Shown here piece after piece: positions 3,722-19,038 of a stretch of DNA of 64,000 nucleotides. How positions within the stretch are numbered: the stretch's first letter is position 1; every line of letters begins with the position of its first letter. Both the position numbers and the translations under genes were made by a program. Source of the DNA: Terriglobia bacterium (lineage in GTDB: Bacteria; Acidobacteriota; Terriglobia; Terriglobales; Acidobacteriaceae). The notes beneath the pieces are model-generated. The model had not been told where the DNA came from. It saw only the letters and a program-made list of their open reading frames with translations, and did not search any database. The stretch is taken from positions 1 to 64,000 of the forward strand of contig JAIQFH010000014.1 in NCBI GenBank assembly GCA_020073385.1, written 5' to 3'.

Positions 3722-5089
3722 TTACGCTGGGGACTGAGCTTCCCGGATGGCACTGGCGAGTTGGTCGACTGACCACAACACCTGATCCGGCGCGATGACC
3801 GCGGGTGGGGCAAGAAGGATGTGATCGCCCGCCGTCCCGTCGACGCTGCCTTGCATGGGATAGACGAGCAGACCCCGCCTGAGAGCCGCTGCAGCTACCA
3901 AGGCCGAGAAACCTCGAGCGGGTGGGAAGGGACGTTTCGTCGACTTGTCAGCCACGAATTCGATCGCCCAGAGCAATCCGATGCCCCGGACGTCCCCAAC
4001 CGATTCCTTTTCACGCAGAGTTTCTAGAGCCTGTTTGAAAAGCGTGGCTGGTGTCCCGGAACAGTTGGAATCGGCGGCTTCCACCAGCTTGTGTGTCTGC
4101 AAATACTGAAGTACCGCTCGTCCGGCAGCCAGAGAGATGGGGTGGGCGTTGTAAGTGAACCCGTGCAGGAATGACCCTGAGCCGACGGCGATGGCGTCGA
4201 CGACTTTCTGGCTGGCAATCACCGCGCCAAGCGGGGCGTACCCGCTGGAGAGCCCCTTTGCCGCGACCAGGATATCCGGCTTCACATCCCAATGCTCGAC
4301 GGCGAAATTGCGGCCTGTGCGTCCCATGCCGGTCATGACCTCATCGGCGATGAGGAGGACACCATTTTCACGGCAGACTTCTGCGATCGACTGCAAATAT
4401 CCGGGCGGAGGAACAACAGCACCGAGCGTTGCCCCGCTCACCGGCTCAAAGATAAATCCGGCGGCCTCACCGTTGGCGCTTTCGATCGCGTGCTTGAGTT
4501 CGGCGGCGAATTGTTGCCCGCAGTTGCGGCATCCGTCGGTGCAGTCGAATGCGCAGCGGTAGCAATACGGCATGCCAATGTGCGGAAACTCGCGCACCAT
4601 CGGCAGATACATTTCCCTTCGACGCTTGTTGCCGGAGACCGAAAGCGCGCCGAGCGTCGAACCGTGATAGCTCAGGTGCCGGCTGAGGATCTGGTGCCGC
4701 TGGCTTTGGCCGACTTCTACCTGATACTGACGCGTGAGCTTCAGCGCCGTCTCGACCGATTCCGAACCTCCGCAGGTAAAGTAAACCGCGCCGCCCTCGA
4801 AATGTTTCCCTGCGAAGGCAAGCAACTCTTCGGCATATTCCTCGGCGATCGGAGTCGTGAACTGGCTGGTGTGAACGAACTCCAGTTTGCCCGCCTGCTC
4901 GGCCATGGCCGCGGAGATCTCGGGAACACCATGACCGATCAGATTCACCGCGGCTGATCCCGCAAGGTCGAGATACTTCTTGCCGGCGGAATCCCAGACG
5001 TAGGCTCCTTCCCCTCGAACTGCGGAAGGAAAGTCCTTGCGGAAGGATCGACGAAAGACAGACGAGCGGGCCTGGGTCTGCTGCTTCAT
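3722..5089 (-). CDS. Class III PLP-dependent aminotransferase
   Basis: 455 residues, a full-length class III (omega) aminotransferase. The PLP lysine lies in AAKGLSSGYAPLGAV, the cofactor aspartate in LLIADEVMTGMGRTG, and the phosphate-binding turn in FTCGGSESVETALK. A five-cysteine cluster (CYRCAFDCTDGCRNC) sits near residue 180; the YCYRC part is seen in related enzymes and the rest looks expanded. Substrate is unknown; diamine, beta-amino acid and ornithine-type donors are all possible. It is divergent from the MurJ-like gene, with about 60-130 bp between the starts. Confidence 0.85.
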   Translation of the reverse strand: MKQQTQARSSVFRRSFRKDFPSAVRGEGAYVWDSAGKKYLDLAGSAAVNLIGHGVPEISAAMAEQAGKLEFVHTSQFTTPIAEEYAEELLAFAGKHFEGGAVYFTCGGSESVETALKLTRQYQVEVGQSQRHQILSRHLSYHGSTLGALSVSGNKRRREMYLPMVREFPHIGMPYCYRCAFDCTDGCRNCGQQFAAELKHAIESANGEAAGFIFEPVSGATLGAVVPPPGYLQSIAEVCRENGVLLIADEVMTGMGRTGRNFAVEHWDVKPDILVAAKGLSSGYAPLGAVIASQKVVDAIAVGSGSFLHGFTYNAHPISLAAGRAVLQYLQTHKLVEAADSNCSGTPATLFKQALETLREKESVGDVRGIGLLWAIEFVADKSTKRPFPPARGFSALVAAAALRRGLLVYPMQGSVDGTAGDHILLAPPAVIAPDQVLWSVDQLASAIREAQSPA

Positions 5090-11174: not shown

Positions 11175-11253
11175 CTCCGATTGTAGTGTAAAATTGCTGG
11201 GAACCCCTCTGCTGGGGCTGGTCCTAAACGGGCCGTTCCAGCGGAATCCTTCC

Positions 11254-11301
11254 AGTCGGGACGTGGCTCAGCCTGGTAGAGCACTCGCTTGGGGTGCGAG
11301 G
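11254..11301 (+). repeat. attL, left copy of the 48-bp direct repeat
   Basis: Identical to 17467-17514. After the final G the left copy continues CTGTGCG and the right copy GGTCGGC, so the identity stops sharply at the 3' end of the anticodon stem. This is the junction with the chromosomal side next to polA. Confidence 0.85.
11257..11301 (+). pseudogene. tRNA-Pro(GGG) 5' fragment
   Basis: Contains the acceptor 5' strand, D arm and complete anticodon arm of the tRNA-Pro at 17470, then diverges. It has no variable loop, T arm or acceptor 3' strand, so it cannot form a tRNA. It is the original 5' part of the gene, left behind on the polA side by integration. Confidence 0.85.
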
Positions 11302-11338
11302 CTGTGCGTCACGTATTCATCTGAAAAGGGTTGCTGGA

Positions 11339-12193
11339 ATGTTCCTCCAAATTGAGTACTCGCGGAGGAAAATTGTGCTGCCAAAATTCCAGCAGTTCAT
11401 CAACGAACGTCAGTACCTTCACAACGTCACGCCCGCAACAGTCGAGTGGTACACACACGCTTTCAAGTGGCTGCGCACGGAATCACCATCGCACGATGAG
11501 TTGAAAGATACCGTGATGCGAATGCGCGGGAAGGGACTGAAGGCCACGGGCTGCAACTCCGCAATCCGCGCGATCAATGCCTATCTCAAGTGGGCAGCAT
11601 CCGACCAGCGCATCGCCCAACTCAAAGAGCCTCAGCTTGTCCTGCCTACGTTCTCCGTTGCGCAAGTCACCCGCCTCATCGGATCAAAGCCCCGTAGTTT
11701 TTATCAGCGGCGTCTGCACCTGATTGTGCTCATGCTGCTCGACACAGGATGCAGGATCACCGAGGCGCTGACTCTGCGCGTCAGTGACGTTGACTTCGAC
11801 AATCTGCTCCTCCTGCTCGACGGTAAGGGACGGAAGCAGCGTAAGGTTCCGTTCTCATTCGAGCTTCGCAAGGCGCTGTTCCGCCACACGCGAGAGTTCT
11901 GCCCACAGCAGCACATGCTGGTGCTTGGCACACGAGACGGCTGTAAGCTAGGCAGGCGTGTGGTCCTGCGGGACGTAAAGCTGCTATGCAAGCGACTCGG
12001 CTTCGATCCACCAGCCCGCACACTCCACGCATTCCGCCACACGTTCGCAGTCAACTACCTTCGGCGGGGAGGATCGGTGTTCCATCTTCAGAAGGTGCTG
12101 GGACACTCCACCCTTGAGATGACTCGGCGCTACGCGAATCTGATGACCGAGGATTTGCAGGCCGTGCATCAGCAGTGCTCGTTGCTGGCCTGA
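11339..12193 (+). CDS. Tyrosine recombinase (integrase of the element)
   Basis: 284 residues from the ATG at 11339; an AAAAGGG lies about 9 bases upstream. An earlier ATG-type start at 11294 lies inside attL and is unlikely. An N-terminal SAM-like core-binding domain (residues 15-100) precedes the catalytic domain. The catalytic set is complete: Arg in DTGCRITEAL, Lys in DGKGRKQRKV, HxxR in LHAFRHTFAVNY, His in LGHSTLEM, and Tyr in TRRYANLM. It should catalyse integration at the tRNA-Pro site. It reads away from attL into the element. Confidence 0.9.
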   Translation: MFLQIEYSRRKIVLPKFQQFINERQYLHNVTPATVEWYTHAFKWLRTESPSHDELKDTVMRMRGKGLKATGCNSAIRAINAYLKWAASDQRIAQLKEPQLVLPTFSVAQVTRLIGSKPRSFYQRRLHLIVLMLLDTGCRITEALTLRVSDVDFDNLLLLLDGKGRKQRKVPFSFELRKALFRHTREFCPQQHMLVLGTRDGCKLGRRVVLRDVKLLCKRLGFDPPARTLHAFRHTFAVNYLRRGGSVFHLQKVLGHSTLEMTRRYANLMTEDLQAVHQQCSLLA

Positions 12194-12631
12194 CCCAAAT
12201 CTCAGACCGTACCTGCCGGGCCGACTCAATCATCCCCCTCGGAGCCTTACCCCCTCCGAACGTCTCGGATTCGGAGGACTAGGATCAGTACGTCCTTGAC
12301 CGGGATGTATAGTGTACGCGAGGAAGCCCGGTGTAAAGCGCCCAATCGTAGCGCTGCATCTTCCGCATAATAAAGGACTTGCAAAGTAAAGCGTGCTCGG
12401 GAAGACCAGCGCCACAACGGTCTGGCTGCGGTTCCTGCCAGACGACACAGAGCAGTAATACTCCGAATTTGGGGCATCTGTCCGTGCCAATTCGTGCGGA
12501 AAAGTGTGCCTACATCGACGCGTTCAGCCCCCACCCCGACCGCGTATCACGAAGCCGGACACACCGTGTTCTCCACTCTCCACAGCCCAAGGTGTGGAGA
12601 CGCTCCTCGCAAGTGCGAGAAGTGCGGAACC
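12194..12631. other. Non-coding or degraded stretch after the integrase
   Basis: 438 bp without a convincing gene. A perfect stem, CCTCCGAA at 12253-12260 and TTCGGAGG at 12270-12277, follows the integrase stop by 60 bp and may end its transcript, although it has no T-run. One reading frame at 12531-12590 reads TAYHEAGHTVFS, like the zinc site of a metallopeptidase, but nothing around it supports a gene. It may be a remnant. Confidence 0.5.
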
Positions 12632-14752
12632 TCACACCCTACCTGCCTTGACCAACCGCATTTGGATACCGAGACTGACCAGGTAAGCTCCAACAATCAA
12701 AAACATCAGGTTTTGGTTGCCCATGATCATGCTGAGGTACTCACTGAACCCACCGATCATCGCTCCGATTAGGTTTGCGCCGAAGAAAGAGGACGGGTTC
12801 AACGCTTGGCGGAAGGTCGTGGAGAAGATCAGCCCGGCAAAAAAGATCGGTAAGGGCACAACGAGAAGGGACCAAACTAGTCGTTCGTTGAAACTTAACG
12901 CCAGAATAACGTCTCGCTTAACGAAGTAGAGCAGCAGCAGAGTTGCGATCAGTGGCGCGTAAAGCCACGTTCGGAAACCGCTCATGCGCATCGCCAGCAT
13001 GTTCGCAGCCAACACCATCAGAAGAACGCCCGCTACAACCACCAGGGTTACAAACCAGGTGGTGCCAAAGTAAAGAGAACAGTCCGAGATGCTCTTCGTT
13101 TCCAGCAGCAGGAAACCCACCCCTAGAAAGAGAAAGTGACCATCGTTCATTCCGAACCCTCGGCCACGCAGCACGAACACCGTCGGTATCGTGATCGCCA
13201 GGAGGATTCCAATCACGATCAGGTAATCAGCCGGGATGGTTTTGTGAGAGAGATAAAGAAAGGGCCAGTCGTCTGTAGGAACGACGGCTTCGGATAAATC
13301 GTCACCTACCGGGAAGACTGTGCGCACGAATCGGCCGTAGTGAGGGGGCGGGTTCGGGTGCTGACCACGGAAGGCGCAGATCACCACCTGTCCCTGACTT
13401 TCATACACAACGGGCATCTGGTTAGTGGCGAGTGCAACCATTCGCACCAGCTTGCGGGCGAGCCACTCGTGCCCGGCCATGAAAGAAAGCGACAATACCC
13501 CGCTGTCGTTCAGCAACCGGAAGGCCGACTGCATACTCTGCACGGTGTAGATATAACCATCTAAGCGGATATTACTCATTGAGCTAAACAGTGTTTGTGA
13601 GTCTAAGAAGCCGAAGACCACCATGTCGTATCCGCCATTTGAACGCCGAAGAAAAGCTCGGGCATCCTCGACGTGGACACGAACCTTCGGATTCTCGTAA
13701 ATTCCCGAAGCATTGAATCGGTTAGACAGCTTCACTAACATTGGGTCGATTTCCACCGCATCTACCTGTTCGGCTCCGTTCAGCACCGCAATCTGCGTGT
13801 CCGTACCTCCTCCCGCCCCTAACATGAGCACCCGTCGGTGGGCCGGAGCCAGCACATACGGCAGTTCGTATTGCAATCTCGCGTCGAGAATCTGGGTTCT
13901 CTTCAGTGGAGAATAGCGGCTTGGGTCGAAGGTGCCGTCGCTCTGAAGAAAATAGTGATTTACCCTCACATCGTAGATGGGCGGGTCCTGCATTGTGCGC
14001 AGCCCCGGCTGTGGCTCGCGGATGGGAGTATTACCGTGCTTATCGCCCTGCAAGACCACGACGATGTAGTAGTACGGTGACCAGATTGCGCTGGGACTGA
14101 CCGAAAAATACACCCCCGCCAACGACAGCACCAGGATCGGGATTGATCGCAACCATTGCCCGCGCGGAAGAAGCAAAATAATAGCGAAAGCCACGAATCC
14201 CATTCCAAGCATCGGTGAAAAATACTTCAACGAGAAAACCCCGAAACACAACGTCCCCGCAAGGCTGCCACCCAAATCCCAGGAGTAGGCCAGTAAAGGG
14301 GGGAGAGCTTCAAAGAGCGATCCGATCCGCTGACCCAGCGGTACGAACACTATTGCGTTGCTGACGAAGATACCCACCAGACTCACATAACGCACGAGTT
14401 GGGGAGTAGGTGTGTAAAACCTGCTCTCCGAAGCAGTAGTCGGCAGCGTGATGAAATGGGCAATCAACAGCCATACCACGTTGATCAGCAGCAGAGATGG
14501 CAACCATCCAAAGAGCGACCTTCTTTTCTTGCCGAGAATCGCTCCGACCCCCAGACCGAGGAAAGAACTGATCAATATCAGGTTGGCGTAATAGGCGATC
14601 AGTCTTACGACCGCAGGCGCCCAGCGAATCACCATCAATTCGAGAAAGAGAGCGAGGAATGACAGACAGAACAACTCAAGCCCGCGCCGCCGTCTGACAT
14701 GCCATTCCGTCACTTGAGACAACGGTAGAGCGGGTGAATCGGTTGAAACCAT
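12632..14752 (-). CDS. Membrane protein with spermidine-synthase-like domain
   Basis: 706 residues. About seven membrane helices (residues 25-230) precede a soluble Rossmann methyltransferase-like domain at about 305-460, followed by about six more helices. The SAM-type glycine loop is VLMLGAGGGTDTQIAVL and the acidic strand-2 end is VDAVEIDPML. The acidic catalytic motif of true spermidine synthases is replaced by VFGFLDSQTL, so aminopropyl transfer is doubtful. Homologues of this fused type are known in many environmental bacteria without a defined reaction. It is the largest cargo gene of the element and faces the integrase. Confidence 0.75.
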   Translation of the reverse strand: MVSTDSPALPLSQVTEWHVRRRRGLELFCLSFLALFLELMVIRWAPAVVRLIAYYANLILISSFLGLGVGAILGKKRRSLFGWLPSLLLINVVWLLIAHFITLPTTASESRFYTPTPQLVRYVSLVGIFVSNAIVFVPLGQRIGSLFEALPPLLAYSWDLGGSLAGTLCFGVFSLKYFSPMLGMGFVAFAIILLLPRGQWLRSIPILVLSLAGVYFSVSPSAIWSPYYYIVVVLQGDKHGNTPIREPQPGLRTMQDPPIYDVRVNHYFLQSDGTFDPSRYSPLKRTQILDARLQYELPYVLAPAHRRVLMLGAGGGTDTQIAVLNGAEQVDAVEIDPMLVKLSNRFNASGIYENPKVRVHVEDARAFLRRSNGGYDMVVFGFLDSQTLFSSMSNIRLDGYIYTVQSMQSAFRLLNDSGVLSLSFMAGHEWLARKLVRMVALATNQMPVVYESQGQVVICAFRGQHPNPPPHYGRFVRTVFPVGDDLSEAVVPTDDWPFLYLSHKTIPADYLIVIGILLAITIPTVFVLRGRGFGMNDGHFLFLGVGFLLLETKSISDCSLYFGTTWFVTLVVVAGVLLMVLAANMLAMRMSGFRTWLYAPLIATLLLLYFVKRDVILALSFNERLVWSLLVVPLPIFFAGLIFSTTFRQALNPSSFFGANLIGAMIGGFSEYLSMIMGNQNLMFLIVGAYLVSLGIQMRLVKAGRV

Positions 14753-14843
14753 GGAAACTTCTCCTTCGGGTGCCAGGACGCGACAGTGATTGAATGACAG
14801 GATCGCTTGATCATTGTAAATCCCCAGAGCATGGGCGGATGGC

Positions 14844-15422
14844 TCACACTGCCGCGCAGTGCCTGATTAGCGTATCTTTCGGCACACCGATCTCAGCCGC
14901 GATGTTGCGCCAGCTAAGCCCCTCTTCGCGGAGCTTCAGAGCGCGGTCGGTGTCGACTTCAACGGTTGGTCTACCGAATCGCACACCGCGCCGCTTGGCT
15001 GCGCGTTGACCAGCTATTACACGCTCTCGGATAGTGGAGCGTTCCAGTTCTGCGACGGCTGCGAGTACCGTGAAGATCATTTTCCCGGTCGGCGTGCTGG
15101 TGTCGATACTTTCTTTCAAACTTACGAAATCAATGCCCAATGCAGCGAACTCTTCTAACGCACGGAGCAGGTGCGAAGTAGAGCGTGCAAACCTGTCAAA
15201 ACGCCAGACGGCAACCGCGTCGAACTTTCCGCGTTTAGCATCAGCCATAAGTCGATCCAGCGCAGGACGCCGATCCTTCGCACCACTCATTTTGTCGGCA
15301 TAGGTTTCGACTGTCTGCCACTTACGGAAAGCTGCATACTCACTGAGTTCGTTCACCTGTAGGTCTGCGTTCTGCTCGCCTGTGGATACTCTGACGTATA
15401 GCGCCACTCGTTTCGGTTTCAT
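14844..15422 (-). CDS. Serine recombinase (resolvase/invertase type)
   Basis: 192 residues from the ATG at 15422, which has GGGAGG upstream; the frame stays open further back but without a better start. The catalytic Ser is in ALYVRVSTGEQ. The conserved WRFDRFARST and ELERSTIRERV motifs follow, and a C-terminal Hin-like helix-turn-helix is seen in LSWRNIAAEIGVPKDTL. This is the small resolvase/invertase class, which resolves cointegrates or flips segments. Its partner site could be the dyad upstream at 15520. Confidence 0.9.
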   Translation of the reverse strand: MKPKRVALYVRVSTGEQNADLQVNELSEYAAFRKWQTVETYADKMSGAKDRRPALDRLMADAKRGKFDAVAVWRFDRFARSTSHLLRALEEFAALGIDFVSLKESIDTSTPTGKMIFTVLAAVAELERSTIRERVIAGQRAAKRRGVRFGRPTVEVDTDRALKLREEGLSWRNIAAEIGVPKDTLIRHCAAV

Positions 15423-15519
15423 GAATGATTGCCTCCCGCTGGCGAACTTAGCACGGGTTCCTGAGAAGCTCGGCAGAGCGACCTGCAAGCGGCACAAACG
15501 GTTGGAAATAGAGTTCTTG

Positions 15520-15540
15520 ACTTGTCTCACAAGTTATAAT
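15520..15540. promoter_or_regulatory. Dyad ACTTGT-CTC-ACAAGT with TATAAT
   Basis: A perfect 6-3-6 inverted repeat (15520-15534) abuts a consensus TATAAT (15535-15540) in a locally AT-rich stretch, about 100 bp upstream of the serine recombinase start. It could be an operator or recombinase half-site pair. No well-spaced -35 is visible on either strand. Confidence 0.4.
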
Positions 15541-15806
15541 ATTTGCGACATTCAAAATGGAAAAGTATGAGTGAGCCGAATCAGTCAGTTACAGGGTGAC
15601 TCTCACGGCGACTTTTGCGACACGCCCTATCCCCACCCGAGCAGCAGCGTTCCCCGCGCGGCAGAGGATTCTTTACCTGGGGGCGAGTCTCTGGGAAGGG
15701 AGTGTTATGCGGAGCATGGTAGGGCGCATGAGAACAATACAAACTGGCGTCGGTCGCGTGGAGGTTTTGTCGCTCTACGATACGTGTCTACAACCGATTC
15801 GACGTG

Positions 15807-16437
15807 TCAGTTTCTCCCCATTCTGTCTATCGCCGCCATGATTTTCGGCCATTCCTGCTTCAATGCGTGAGGACCGTTGACTGCCCGCTGTGGATCATTC
15901 TGGAAAGCCAGCGTCACCCCCGCCTGAATCTGCGCACTGGTGAATCCTTGTTTGAGCCATGCCTGCATCACAAAGGCCCATCGCTGCTCCCATCCCTTGC
16001 GCACTTTGGGACTGACGGGCTTCTTCCACCTCTTTGCCTCTTTGAGTAAACACGCACACCACGCACGCGGGCGAGATACCAGAACGCCAGTTTTTCAGCT
16101 TCCTCCGTAACAATCGTTTGGGTGAAGTCTTTCAGCGGCAGGTTTCCCACCTGCACAACATAGGTGTTCCCCGTCTGCCGTCTTTTGCCAGAATGCTTCA
16201 CAATCCAGCAATGATCCTTGTCCTCTAGAGACGGGCGACAGAGCGATAAACGGTGGAGCGATTGACTTTCGAGCATTTCCCTAACGTTTCCCACGATACG
16301 CGACACGCCATCTTTGCATCGGCACGAGCGATCAGGTGAGCGGTGAGCAGTATGTCTATCGTTTCGACCCAATCCGGCTTTCCCGCTGCAAGGAAGGATT
16401 GCAGTAGTTTCAGTTGATCTTTCACAGTCCCCCTCAT
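15807..16437 (-). pseudogene. Winged-helix DNA-binding protein, broken by two tandem duplications
   Basis: Three consecutive frames form one protein when two tandem duplications are removed: an extra AG at 16227-16230 and one copy of CCTCTTTG at 16029-16036/16037-16044. The repaired length is 621 bp, or 206 codons plus stop. The repaired N-terminal part reads through the winged helix: CSKVNRSTVYRSVARL, then LEDKDHCWIVKHSGKRRQ, then TGNTYVV. The C-terminal part (RKGWEQRWAFVMQAWLKQGF onward) is unassigned. It was probably a regulator or replication protein of the element. Sequencing error is an alternative for either duplication. Confidence 0.65.
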
Positions 16438-16485
16438 TAACTATAAAGTACTGGCTACATGTCTACAGGTTACTGTCTTACAATA

Positions 16486-16498
16486 TTGCACAGTGCAA
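16486..16498. promoter_or_regulatory. Perfect dyad TTGCAC-A-GTGCAA
   Basis: A 6-1-6 palindrome about 50 bp upstream of the broken winged-helix gene. Its position and symmetry suit a binding site for a dimeric repressor, possibly that protein itself. Not proven. Confidence 0.35.
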
Positions 16499-16518
16499 CG
16501 CTATTAATCATATTAACG

Positions 16519-16571
16519 GCAGCAGAAACCGGGTGTTGCCCGGTTGTAGAGACAGTTAGGTTTTCTGCTGC
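16519..16571. other. Branched stem structure inside the element
   Basis: Outer arms GCAGCAGAAA (16519-16528) and TTTCTGCTGC (16562-16571) enclose an inner hairpin ACCGGG-TGTTG-CCCGGT (16528-16544). The result is a branched fold of about 53 bases in the gap between two gene blocks. It could be a structured RNA leader, a single-strand origin-like site or a terminator. Confidence 0.4.
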
Positions 16572-16607
16572 TCGCGTTCCTAGAGGAACAGAAGGCAGGA
16601 TGCCTCA

Positions 16608-16805
16608 GTGCGTAAGCACTGGGAAACATCTTCCGAGGCGAACAAAAAGCGAATACAGAAACAGGCCGCGTATACTATACACCTCAGGATTGCCGATTCA
16701 GAGGTTGCTGACCTCGTGATGGCCCTTGGGCCTTCCGAGTGTCTATGTCGCGCTAGAACGGCTCCCAATGCGGTTTCCAGGGCAGCAGGAAGAGTCTCTA
16801 CCTAA
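16608..16805 (+). CDS. Possible small protein coupled to the HNH gene
   Basis: 65 codons from a GTG. The stop overlaps the next start as TAATG, the usual sign of translational coupling. A middle segment (AAYTIHLRIADSEVADLVMA) looks protein-like; the C-terminus does not. No family is recognised. It could be an accessory or directionality factor, or only a leader. Confidence 0.35.
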   Translation: MRKHWETSSEANKKRIQKQAAYTIHLRIADSEVADLVMALGPSECLCRARTAPNAVSRAAGRVST

Positions 16806-17290
16806 TGAAGACTATCCCTTTGACTCAAGGTTTCGTCGCCCTCGTGGATGACGCCGACTATGAACGAGTGTCAGCCTTCAAGTGGAGCGCGAGCAGGACC
16901 AAAAGCAACGTGTACGGCGTGCGGAAAATACGAACGCCCGAAGGTCGATCTACGTCACAACTCCTGCACCGCTTTGTTATGGGTGTAACTGACCCCGAAA
17001 TTGACGTTGACCATGAGGATCACGACGGGCTGAACTGTCAGCGGTCCAACTTGCGTAAATGCGTTGGCGGCGAGAACGATGGGAACCGAACGAAGACACA
17101 TGGAAGTTCTCAGTACAAGGGTGTCTCGTGGTCCAAAGATAAAGGCAAGTGGAGAGCGTGCATCACGATAGAGAAGACAGTGCATCTTGGCTACTTCACT
17201 GACGAGGTGCAGGCGGCACTCGCCTACGATACGGCGGCACGGGTTCGCTTCGGTGTAATGGCAAATTGCAACTTCCCTTTGCAGGCATAG
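16805..17290 (+). CDS. HNH endonuclease with AP2 DNA-binding domain
   Basis: 161 residues. The N-terminal half holds an HNH site: LLHRFVMG, then DVDHEDHDGLNCQRSNLR. The C-terminal half is an AP2/ERF-type DNA-binding domain: SQYKGVSWSKDKGKWRACI, then HLGYFTDEVQAALAYDTAA. This arrangement is known in free-standing homing endonucleases of phages and mobile elements. No intron or intein is visible beside it. It is the last gene before attR and may promote spread of the element or be a selfish passenger. Confidence 0.85.
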   Translation: MKTIPLTQGFVALVDDADYERVSAFKWSASRTKSNVYGVRKIRTPEGRSTSQLLHRFVMGVTDPEIDVDHEDHDGLNCQRSNLRKCVGGENDGNRTKTHGSSQYKGVSWSKDKGKWRACITIEKTVHLGYFTDEVQAALAYDTAARVRFGVMANCNFPLQA

Positions 17291-17466
17291 AGTACCTGCC
17301 TCACACATGTTCGATCCCAACAACGCATGTGCTTCAGAGGAAACGCGAGCTTCTCTCCAAAAAGAATGAGTTCGTTCTCTGCGACTTTCCTCCGAAGATG
17401 GCTTGCCAGAGCAGCGTACTCGCCTCTATGATTGAGGCGGTGGAACTTCCATCGTAACCCCTTTAT

Positions 17467-17514
17467 AGTCGGGACGTGGCTCAGCCTGGTAGAGCACTCG
17501 CTTGGGGTGCGAGG
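17467..17514 (+). repeat. attR, right copy of the 48-bp direct repeat
   Basis: Identical to attL at 11254-11301 and forms the 5' part of the intact tRNA-Pro. The element thus supplied the 5' half of the working tRNA, and the chromosome the 3' half. Confidence 0.85.
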
Positions 17515-17546
17515 GGTCGGCAGTTCAAATCTGCCCGTCCCGACCA
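17470..17546 (+). tRNA. tRNA-Pro (anticodon GGG)
   Basis: 77 bases with CCA encoded. Acceptor CGGGACG pairs with CGTCCCG, D stem GCTC with GAGC, anticodon stem CTCGC with GCGAG around loop TTGGGGT, and T stem GGCAG with CTGCC around TTCAAAT. The anticodon is GGG. The DNA directly upstream belongs to the integrated element, so the native promoter has been separated from it. Confidence 0.95.
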
Positions 17547-17631: not shown

Positions 17632-18726
17632 TCATCTGATGAGAGTCACCCACGCCGGGCCTGTTCCCGCACTGGCCGGCGAGCCGGCTGCACTCAAAGC
17701 GCCCGTGGTCGCATCGATCGTAAACAGCGTGATGCTGTCCGAGCCGAGGTTCGCGACATAGGCGAATCGGCCCGAAGCGTCCAGCGTTAGCGAGACTGGA
17801 TTTGTGCCGCCAGATACGGTGGAGCTTTGCGTCAGCGCGCCGGTTGCGACATCGACTGCAAACGTGTTCACAGATCCATCCACCGCATTCGTCACGTACA
17901 GGAATCGGCCGTGGGAGTCCACCGTTATCGAGGTCGGGCCATTCCCGCTGACCACCGGTTGACCGATCCGCGTCAACGCTCCAGATGCCTGGTCGACCGA
18001 GAACACCGCAACATTGTTTGAGCTGAAATCGGCGATAAAAGCAAATCTTCCAGATGGGTCCATGCTGATGGCAGACGGACTCAAGCCAGCCGGCGTTGCG
18101 CCGAGCAATCCCAAGGCTCCGGAACTGTCCACTCGATAAACTGTCACATCGCCAGAATTAAAGTTGGCTACGTATGCGAAATGACCTGAAGGGTGGAATC
18201 TGAGTTCGACCGGTGCGGCATCCGTTGAAACGGTACCGCTCAAAGGAGTGAGGGCGCCCGTGCTGGGATTGATGGAGAACCCTGAAACGGTGTTGGCTTG
18301 CTGGTTTACTGAATAGAGGACGTTTCCCGTCGGTCCAATTACGATGAATCGGGGGCCGCCGCCGGCAGGAACAGGCGAACCGACCATCGCCAGGTCGCCC
18401 GTGTTGGCGTCGATAGCGAATGTCGAAATGTCATTCGAAGCGAAATTGCCGACGTAGACAAAATTCCCGGAGCGCTCCGCCGCGATAACCCGGGCATGAA
18501 AGCCGCCGGTGGGCACGGTGGCCTTCGGGGTCAGTTGGCCAGTTTGAGGATCGATCGCATAGCTGGAGATGCTGTTGGAGGAAAAATTGGCTACCAACGC
18601 GAAGCGTGCCGCAACGTTCGGCGGCGGGGTAGTTTTAGGGATCGAAGGAGCGTACCCGCCACAGCCTACGAGGTGCGCGGATCCAATAAAAATCAAAATC
18701 TTGAGCGCAAGTTTTCTTGGAGACAT
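17632..18726 (-). CDS. Lactonase-like YVTN beta-propeller lipoprotein
   Basis: 364 residues from the ATG at 18726, which has GAGAGGGA upstream; the open frame before it is not used. The N-terminus is a lipoprotein signal ending HLVGCGG. About seven blades repeat the pattern GRFAYVANxxSxxxTxFxxDxxTGALT. The fold matches 6-phosphogluconolactonase-like/YVTN proteins. As an outer lipoprotein it is more likely a binding or surface propeller than a cytoplasmic lactonase. The active-site residues cannot be assigned. It lies next to the tRNA-Pro on the chromosomal side. Confidence 0.8.
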   Translation of the reverse strand: MSPRKLALKILIFIGSAHLVGCGGYAPSIPKTTPPPNVAARFALVANFSSNSISSYAIDPQTGQLTPKATVPTGGFHARVIAAERSGNFVYVGNFASNDISTFAIDANTGDLAMVGSPVPAGGGPRFIVIGPTGNVLYSVNQQANTVSGFSINPSTGALTPLSGTVSTDAAPVELRFHPSGHFAYVANFNSGDVTVYRVDSSGALGLLGATPAGLSPSAISMDPSGRFAFIADFSSNNVAVFSVDQASGALTRIGQPVVSGNGPTSITVDSHGRFLYVTNAVDGSVNTFAVDVATGALTQSSTVSGGTNPVSLTLDASGRFAYVANLGSDSITLFTIDATTGALSAAGSPASAGTGPAWVTLIR

Positions 18727-19038
18727 CAGTCCCTCTCGTTGAAATTTGATGGCCGGAATTTGTGCAGAATCCCGACGGCCTGGTTGCAGACTGTTCTTCC
18801 CTGCAAAACTGACGGCCTCTACTGGATTTCGGAAGTGGCTTGTTAGATTCAAGAGAAGGTGAAAACTCTTTGTAAATTCTTTGTCACAAAGGGATTGACT
18901 TTTGGTTGAAGAACGGCGGTGGACCGGATGGACGTTTTGTGGTCAGCACTGGGGGTGCCCGCTTCCGCAACCAAAGTTCTAAAATCGTCCTCTAACGCCG
19001 ACCATTCTTTCCGTTCATGCCAGTTGTCCGGCCCAAAG

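Follow-up and report, generated by a model that had tools for sequence, protein, structure and literature searches.

An integrase-bearing element of 6,213 bp lies within the tRNA-Pro(GGG) gene of a soil Acidobacteriota genome (G000), where it carries the 5' half of the tRNA; it is contained in a 64-kb stretch of this genome that was analysed as a whole and is called the window below. The 6.2-kb element was probably inserted by its own XerC/D-like integrase, with integration exchanging the promoters of the tRNA and integrase genes and with a promoter-like sequence of the element, P_a, that would be repressed by the integrase. More tentatively, this integrase-repressed P_a may drive the host tRNA-Pro(GGG) by way of a half-site resembling the anticodon stem while the integrase is placed under the tRNA promoter, a reciprocal wiring in which both half-sites shift with the target.

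The element and its ends

A preliminary description of this DNA had reported a perfect 48-bp repeat reaching from the 5' end of the tRNA through the anticodon arm, the left copy being a dead fragment and the right copy part of a full tRNA. Both copies are present on the + strand, at 11254-11301 (attL) and 17467-17514 (attR), 6,213 bp apart from start to start, and since the match is perfect over 48 bp it is not due to chance. The left copy consists of tRNA positions 1-45 plus 3 nt upstream, diverges after position 45 and is not called as a tRNA. The only tRNA that ARAGORN finds in the 64-kb window is tRNA-Pro(GGG) at 17470-17546 (+), which is completed by the right copy, the 5' half borne by the element, joined to chromosomal positions 46-77; the genus loci and the related genome G346 support this assignment. 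Element DNA lies upstream of the reconstituted gene. The element-borne 5' half is identical to the host copy at 48 of 48 positions, and among the tRNA-Pro matches in G000 the GGG gene is unique, the remaining ones being TGG and CGG. A terminal integrase beside attL and direct repeats, one of which completes the tRNA, are the hallmarks of a tRNA-targeted tyrosine-integrase element, and the 5' fragment lies upstream of the tRNA in the same orientation, as in the 5'-fragment islands defined by Islander. With a single tRNA called in the window, no separate complete tRNA is encoded by the element. The segment is confirmed as a small mobile integrative element in tRNA-Pro(GGG) that carries the 5' half of the tRNA.

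The tyrosine integrase gene (11375-12193, +; Phage_integrase, E 2.6e-27) encodes a protein whose best PDB matches by sequence are XerC-like proteins and XerD. Although the reading frame is open from 11294, a Shine-Dalgarno sequence GGAGGAA at 11364-11370 indicates the GTG at 11375 as the probable start. The frame is whole through 12193 and is not split by integration in the manner of the suicidal, pTN3-like integrases. The cargo comprises a protein with a spermine/spermidine synthase domain (12632-14752, -; Pfam PF01564, E 3.2e-09) that appears membrane-like by reading, a serine recombinase of the resolvase/invertase type (14844-15530, -; PF00239, E 5.5e-46), whose gene is nested inside the tyrosine-integrase element, and an HNH endonuclease (16805-17290, +; phrog_99, E 2.2e-29) with an AP2-like domain, the PF00847 match being below the cut-off. 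Three short overlapping ORFs on the minus strand at 15807-16437, which found no family match in Pfam and phrog profile searches, may by a guess from reading be one broken gene.

The empty site and the displaced tRNA promoter

In G346, a genome of the same genus (L237/L239), the element is absent and polA, the native promoter and leader, a single tRNA-Pro(GGG) and a YVTN gene are contiguous. This is the attB on which the preliminary description had staked its reading, one in which a single tRNA connects the DNA on the polA side with that on the 17547 side. The YVTN homologue of G346 is 64% identical to that of the window, and among 45 genus genomes searched the YVTN gene has matches at E <= 1e-60 in two, G000 itself and G346. 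In a set of 15 same-genus loci to which G346 does not belong, the YVTN gene is beside tRNA-Pro(GGG) in none. A single tRNA-Pro(GGG) directly follows polA in five of them (L036, L038, L044, L048, L049); in L039 polA lies about 3.7 kb from the tRNA with other genes intervening, in L045 it is on the opposite side of the tRNA, and in the other eight it falls outside the stretch examined.

A native promoter signature (GTGTAAAAT, GTGTAGAAT or TGGTAAAAT) is located 56-87 nt upstream of tRNA-Pro(GGG) in 14 of the 15 genus loci, L037 being the one without a match. In the window the signature is found 72 nt upstream of the tRNA fragment in the left copy and is not matched in the 130 nt that precede the right copy; the native promoter has therefore stayed on the polA side, as had been proposed. 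The native promoter and leader (11185-11256, +) consist of AGTGTAAAAT at 11185-11194, AACCCC and GGAATCCTTCC, and this region now precedes the dead tRNA fragment and the integrase. The upstream regions of the two genes are in this sense exchanged. The native tRNA promoter is not picked up by a scan with the sigma-70 consensus.

Two further observations concern these neighbourhoods. YVTN/lactonase-like beta-propeller paralogues about 65% identical to one another occur at 17632-18852 of the window, in L238 and in L237, and are convergent to tRNA-Pro genes at two G000 sites (GGG and TGG) and one G346 site. In another genome of the genus (L041, 3998-5271), tRNA-Pro(GGG) is followed after about 1.2 kb by a 50-nt repeat of the 3' half, which possibly marks a small conventional island or a remnant of one.

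The integrase family across genomes

At a match threshold of E <= 1e-40, P0001-like integrases occur in 29 of 398 genomes of the taxonomic family and in 30 of 397 genomes of an overlapping order sample. A whole or partial tRNA stands beside the integrase in 32 of the 36 loci other than the window, and these 32 together with the window make up the family set (n=33). The four loci dropped are L104, with the integrase at the contig start and nothing upstream, L125, with no tRNA near the integrase, and L129 and L130, which hold C-terminal pieces of the integrase only (L130 also has an 18-nt piece of tRNA-Arg). A further 13 loci were not analysed separately; some are duplicate records, the matches of L093 and L095 are partial and short, and L094, L096, L097 and L098 are only distantly related (23-32%).

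The targets of the family are tRNA genes for Pro (GGG, TGG, CGG), Ser(GGA), Val and Arg, and the tRNA piece has the same orientation as the integrase in 13 of the 33 elements and the opposite one in 20. For 22 elements the state of both ends was assessed, the far end being unseen in the other 11. Restoration from the 3' side only accounts for 11 of those judged (L099, L108, L110, L111, L113, L114, L117, L119, L123, L164, L166); L111 carries all but 3 nt of the tRNA, and the far copies of L110 and L119 are about 22.5 and 44 kb away, respectively. In seven elements each end bears a whole tRNA (L103, L105, L106, L109, L115, L124, L128), the copy differing at position 1 in L106, L109 and L128 and being 96% identical in L124. 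SLP1 of Streptomyces is a possible precedent for whole-tRNA att sites, and no paper on such sites was found in our literature search. The whole copy beside the integrase in opposite-oriented elements was considered as an expressed gene and not accepted, no native promoter signature being seen by eye.

The 5' side alone is supplied by four elements, namely that of the window, L112, L127 and L116. L112 targets tRNA-Ser(GGA); its 43-nt fragment has a native-type promoter, and the genome contains a single full copy; no relative with both of its flanks was found, the 5' side alone being matched. In L127, at tRNA-Arg(TCT), a 78-bp perfect repeat includes 37 nt of promoter and leader, and the two contigs concerned overlap by 55 bp. 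L116, at tRNA-Pro(TGG), is a probable 5' carrier, the element and the completed tRNA being on different contigs. The part common to the repeats of the family corresponds to about tRNA positions 29-41, which points to a crossover in the anticodon arm. On an IQ-TREE tree of the 33 integrases, the 5'-only state requires four changes, orientation at least 6 and target at least 12. Four origins of the 5'-only state apparently give the best estimate, with L127 on a long branch and the state of L116 being only probable. The total of nine changes of state on this tree is approximate, as L117 and L119 were still scored without their far ends, and the 3' label of L100, L102, L118 and L165 came solely from the integrase end.

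Outside this set, L174 (G009:C87) contains at 4544-4583 a 5' fragment of tRNA-Pro(CGG) that is 40 nt long and has a promoter of native type. No P0001-like integrase is present in the surrounding 8 kb examined, and the full CGG gene is not among the tRNA matches of this genome, which is 88% complete.

A promoter-like sequence at the end of the element

The element DNA that was expected upstream of the working tRNA includes a promoter-like sequence, P_a, with the structure TTGCCA-N18-TATGAT (17403-17432, +). It ends 37 nt before tRNA-Pro(GGG) and points at the host gene. The sigma-70 consensus scan, uncalibrated for promoters of this host and without a hit at the native tRNA promoter, found this one site against a mean of 0.1 in shuffles; a score at the level of P_a or better was reached by 25 of 5000 random 100-mers of the element and by 50 of 5000 shuffles. 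Within the spacer lies a candidate half-site, GTACTCGC (17416-17423, +), that matches the element's own target.

The same layout recurs among relatives. For 19 elements the far end was available for tests of this side (L110, L116 and L119 were left out), and in 15 of them TTG-N17/19-TANNNT is found just outside the att core, at the end that in a circle would come before the integrase, and a copy of the own half-site, matched at 6 or more of 8 positions, ends 2-4 nt before the -10. Random 130-mers of the same elements gave a mean of 0.04 of 19 and a maximum of 1 of 19 in 200 draws. The pattern was noticed first and scored afterwards, by requiring TTG and TANNNT at 15-19 nt, so that the score of 15/19 is not a blind one. 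Over the 19 sides, with both strands allowed, the summed match to the own target is 134 versus a permuted mean of 120.9 (sd 2.57), and none of 50000 permutations was as high. The layout of the window is shared by L124, which carries a whole tRNA at tRNA-Pro(GGG), in the form TTGCGG-N18-TAGAAT, with ACTCGC at the corresponding position. The full pattern is missing in L113, L115, L117 and L127. In L127, a 5' carrier, a copy of the native promoter is found in place of P_a, and the element side of L112, likewise a 5' carrier, shows no convincing tRNA promoter. In opposite-oriented elements (L103, L105, L106, L109, L128 and others), transcription from P_a at the far end would cross the tRNA copy there in antisense.

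A candidate half-site in the integrase leader

Most integrase leaders contain, just before the Shine-Dalgarno sequence, a short copy of one anticodon-stem strand of the element's own target. In the window this is GAGTACTCGC (11354-11363, +), which adjoins the Shine-Dalgarno sequence of the integrase and resembles tRNA positions 23-32. Across the 33 elements the leader copies covary with the target: the summed best match to the own target is 223 versus 186.1 (sd 4.5) when targets are permuted, with 0 of 100000 permutations as high, and the own target is best or tied in 28 leaders (ties scored as best) and not best in 5. An exact 5-nt stem occurs in 20 of the 33 leaders, compared with 5.7 by permutation (maximum 15 in 20000). 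As a control for relatedness, the own target was favoured in 8 of 8 non-overlapping contrasts on the tree. The half-sites of the leader and of the P_a spacer thus both covary with the target tRNA, and the match of the leader copies to the core suggests that they are half-sites of the integrase.

The leader half-site of the window is situated in the loop of an inverted repeat, TTCCTCC...GGAGGAA (11342-11370, +), able to sequester the Shine-Dalgarno sequence, for which the shuffle control is weak. Pairing of the Shine-Dalgarno sequence (3 or more of 4 nt) is seen in 31 of the 33 leaders, and folding energies are below those of shuffles (mean z -2.18, under -1 in 29 of 33, -1.33 in the window). 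The hairpin was set aside as a clear RNA switch, a shuffled upstream part still pairing the Shine-Dalgarno sequence in 24.7 of 33 cases.

How integration may rewire the tRNA gene

In the mechanism that we favour, the element's own XerC/D-like tyrosine integrase would insert it into tRNA-Pro(GGG) at the anticodon arm. Once the element is excised as a circle, its attP would consist in this order of P_a, the tRNA 5' half, the crossover site, the integrase leader and the integrase gene, so that P_a would be the integrase promoter. Integration would place the chromosomal 3' half of the tRNA behind P_a and the element-borne 5' half, making the gene complete again, and the integrase would fall behind the host tRNA promoter and the dead 5' fragment. 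By binding the half-sites in the P_a spacer and in the leader, the integrase may repress its own synthesis and, in the integrated state, could likewise repress the host tRNA. Transcription from P_a, a tRNA made from it and the occupancy of these half-sites by the integrase are predictions from sequence.

The preliminary description had suggested that the element may control, or silence, the tRNA. Control is plausible, given a P_a-type sequence upstream that is found in 15 of 19 related elements; silencing is unsupported and was rejected as the main reading. A tRNA at attR that is silent or barely expressed might be tolerated, since tRNA-Pro(UGG) can read all CCN codons, and indeed the native promoter no longer adjoins the gene, and proline tRNAs with TGG and CGG are retained in the genome. 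However, a promoter-like sequence lies upstream of attR, and the perfect identity of the element's 5' half to that of the host is what would be expected if a functional tRNA were required, which makes this reading quite unlikely. That the repeat arose by a segmental duplication that left a tRNA fragment, with no integration at all, is highly improbable: the repeat itself fits, and nothing more, whereas there is an integrase at the end, an empty site in G346 and integrases of the same type at tRNA genes in relatives.

P_a may also be regarded as an array of binding sites for the integrase or accessory proteins instead of a promoter, transcription of the tRNA then starting at a more distant upstream site, as with read-through from the HNH gene. 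The conserved block does hold the half-site and could be conserved partly for binding alone. Nevertheless, outside the half-site TTG and TANNNT recur at 17-19 nt in 15 of 19 elements, though the scoring itself required 15-19 nt, and we consider this alternative unlikely. With this element, the possible takeover of host tRNA expression by mobile DNA becomes testable, and the covarying half-sites amount to a natural experiment in the change of integrase targets, in which the sites in core, promoter and leader shift together.

Comparison with known systems

The general statement that most tRNA-integrating elements restore the 3' end is correct, and carriers of the 5' end are a known minority that also includes the archaeal pTN3 type. 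In the published portions available to us, Islander lists 159 of 3919 tRNA islands with a 5' tDNA fragment (PMC4383910), and 5'-distal recombination is described as considerably less frequent (Krupovic 2019, PMC6563490). The present element resembles the Islander 5'-fragment islands in that the tRNA is restored from the 5' side, and anticodon-centred crossovers form a class there. As far as the available text indicates, Islander seeks a tDNA and a fragment and would presumably miss elements whose two ends both bear a whole tRNA; unlike here, no analysis of promoters or half-sites is seen in that text. In Thermococcus, elements of the pTN3 type likewise use the 5' half of the tRNA as attB. According to excerpts of these reports, the tRNA is separated from its original promoter (Cossu 2017, PMC5495485) and is then expressed from the integrase promoter, an arrangement seldom met in bacteria (Badel 2021, PMC8371274). 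There, however, integration disrupts the integrase gene (PMC5495485), whereas the integrase described here is whole, bacterial and XerC/D-like.

Judging from the accessible part of the KplE1 report (PMC2951348), the sites of IntS overlap the integrase promoter of a tRNA-targeted element, as proposed here from half-sites. In KplE1, however, attL overlaps the int promoter after integration, while the promoter-like sequence of the present element is left at the opposite end, where it points at the tRNA. The tRNA-dependent lysogeny of actinobacteriophages (PMC10865867, in the part available) similarly replaces the function of an interrupted host tRNA by element DNA and a promoter, but there a separate complete phage tRNA compensates, in contrast to the completion in place of the interrupted gene. 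A literature search for integrase autoregulation at tRNA sites returned KplE1 alone, and one for integrase promoters driving a tRNA returned, among sources seen in part, KplE1, Badel 2021 and an ICEclc paper.

Restored bacterial tRNA genes are described in the available text of Badel 2021, citing Williams 2002 (PMC8371274), as keeping their original promoter with very few exceptions. Related integrases of this family furnish the 3' side, a complete tRNA or only the 5' side, so that the rule is not dictated by the integrase. A partial search of partly available literature found no report of a single integrase family that mixes 3', whole and 5' carriers, nor of target-covarying half-sites in both the spacer of an integrase promoter and the leader. 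What is new is the comparative picture of the family, 5'-carrying tRNA islands being already known as a minority.

A second family member in the same genome

Contig C127 of G000 (L117) carries a family member at tRNA-Pro(TGG), whose integrase is about 61% identical. Its ends match an uninterrupted tRNA-Pro(TGG) region on contig C59 (L003), the left end over 241 nt at 97.5%, with mismatches in the tRNA 3' half, and the right end over 169 nt at 100%. The crossover falls within tRNA positions 17-49, and in the occupied state the tRNA would differ in the sequence of its T arm. ARAGORN calls a tRNA at the right end (12431-12506), which was rejected, its first 15 nt mismatching the host tRNA; for this reason L117 is counted as a 3' carrier. 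Occupied (C127) and empty (C59) sites coexist in one assembly, pointing to either excision or a population of mixed state.
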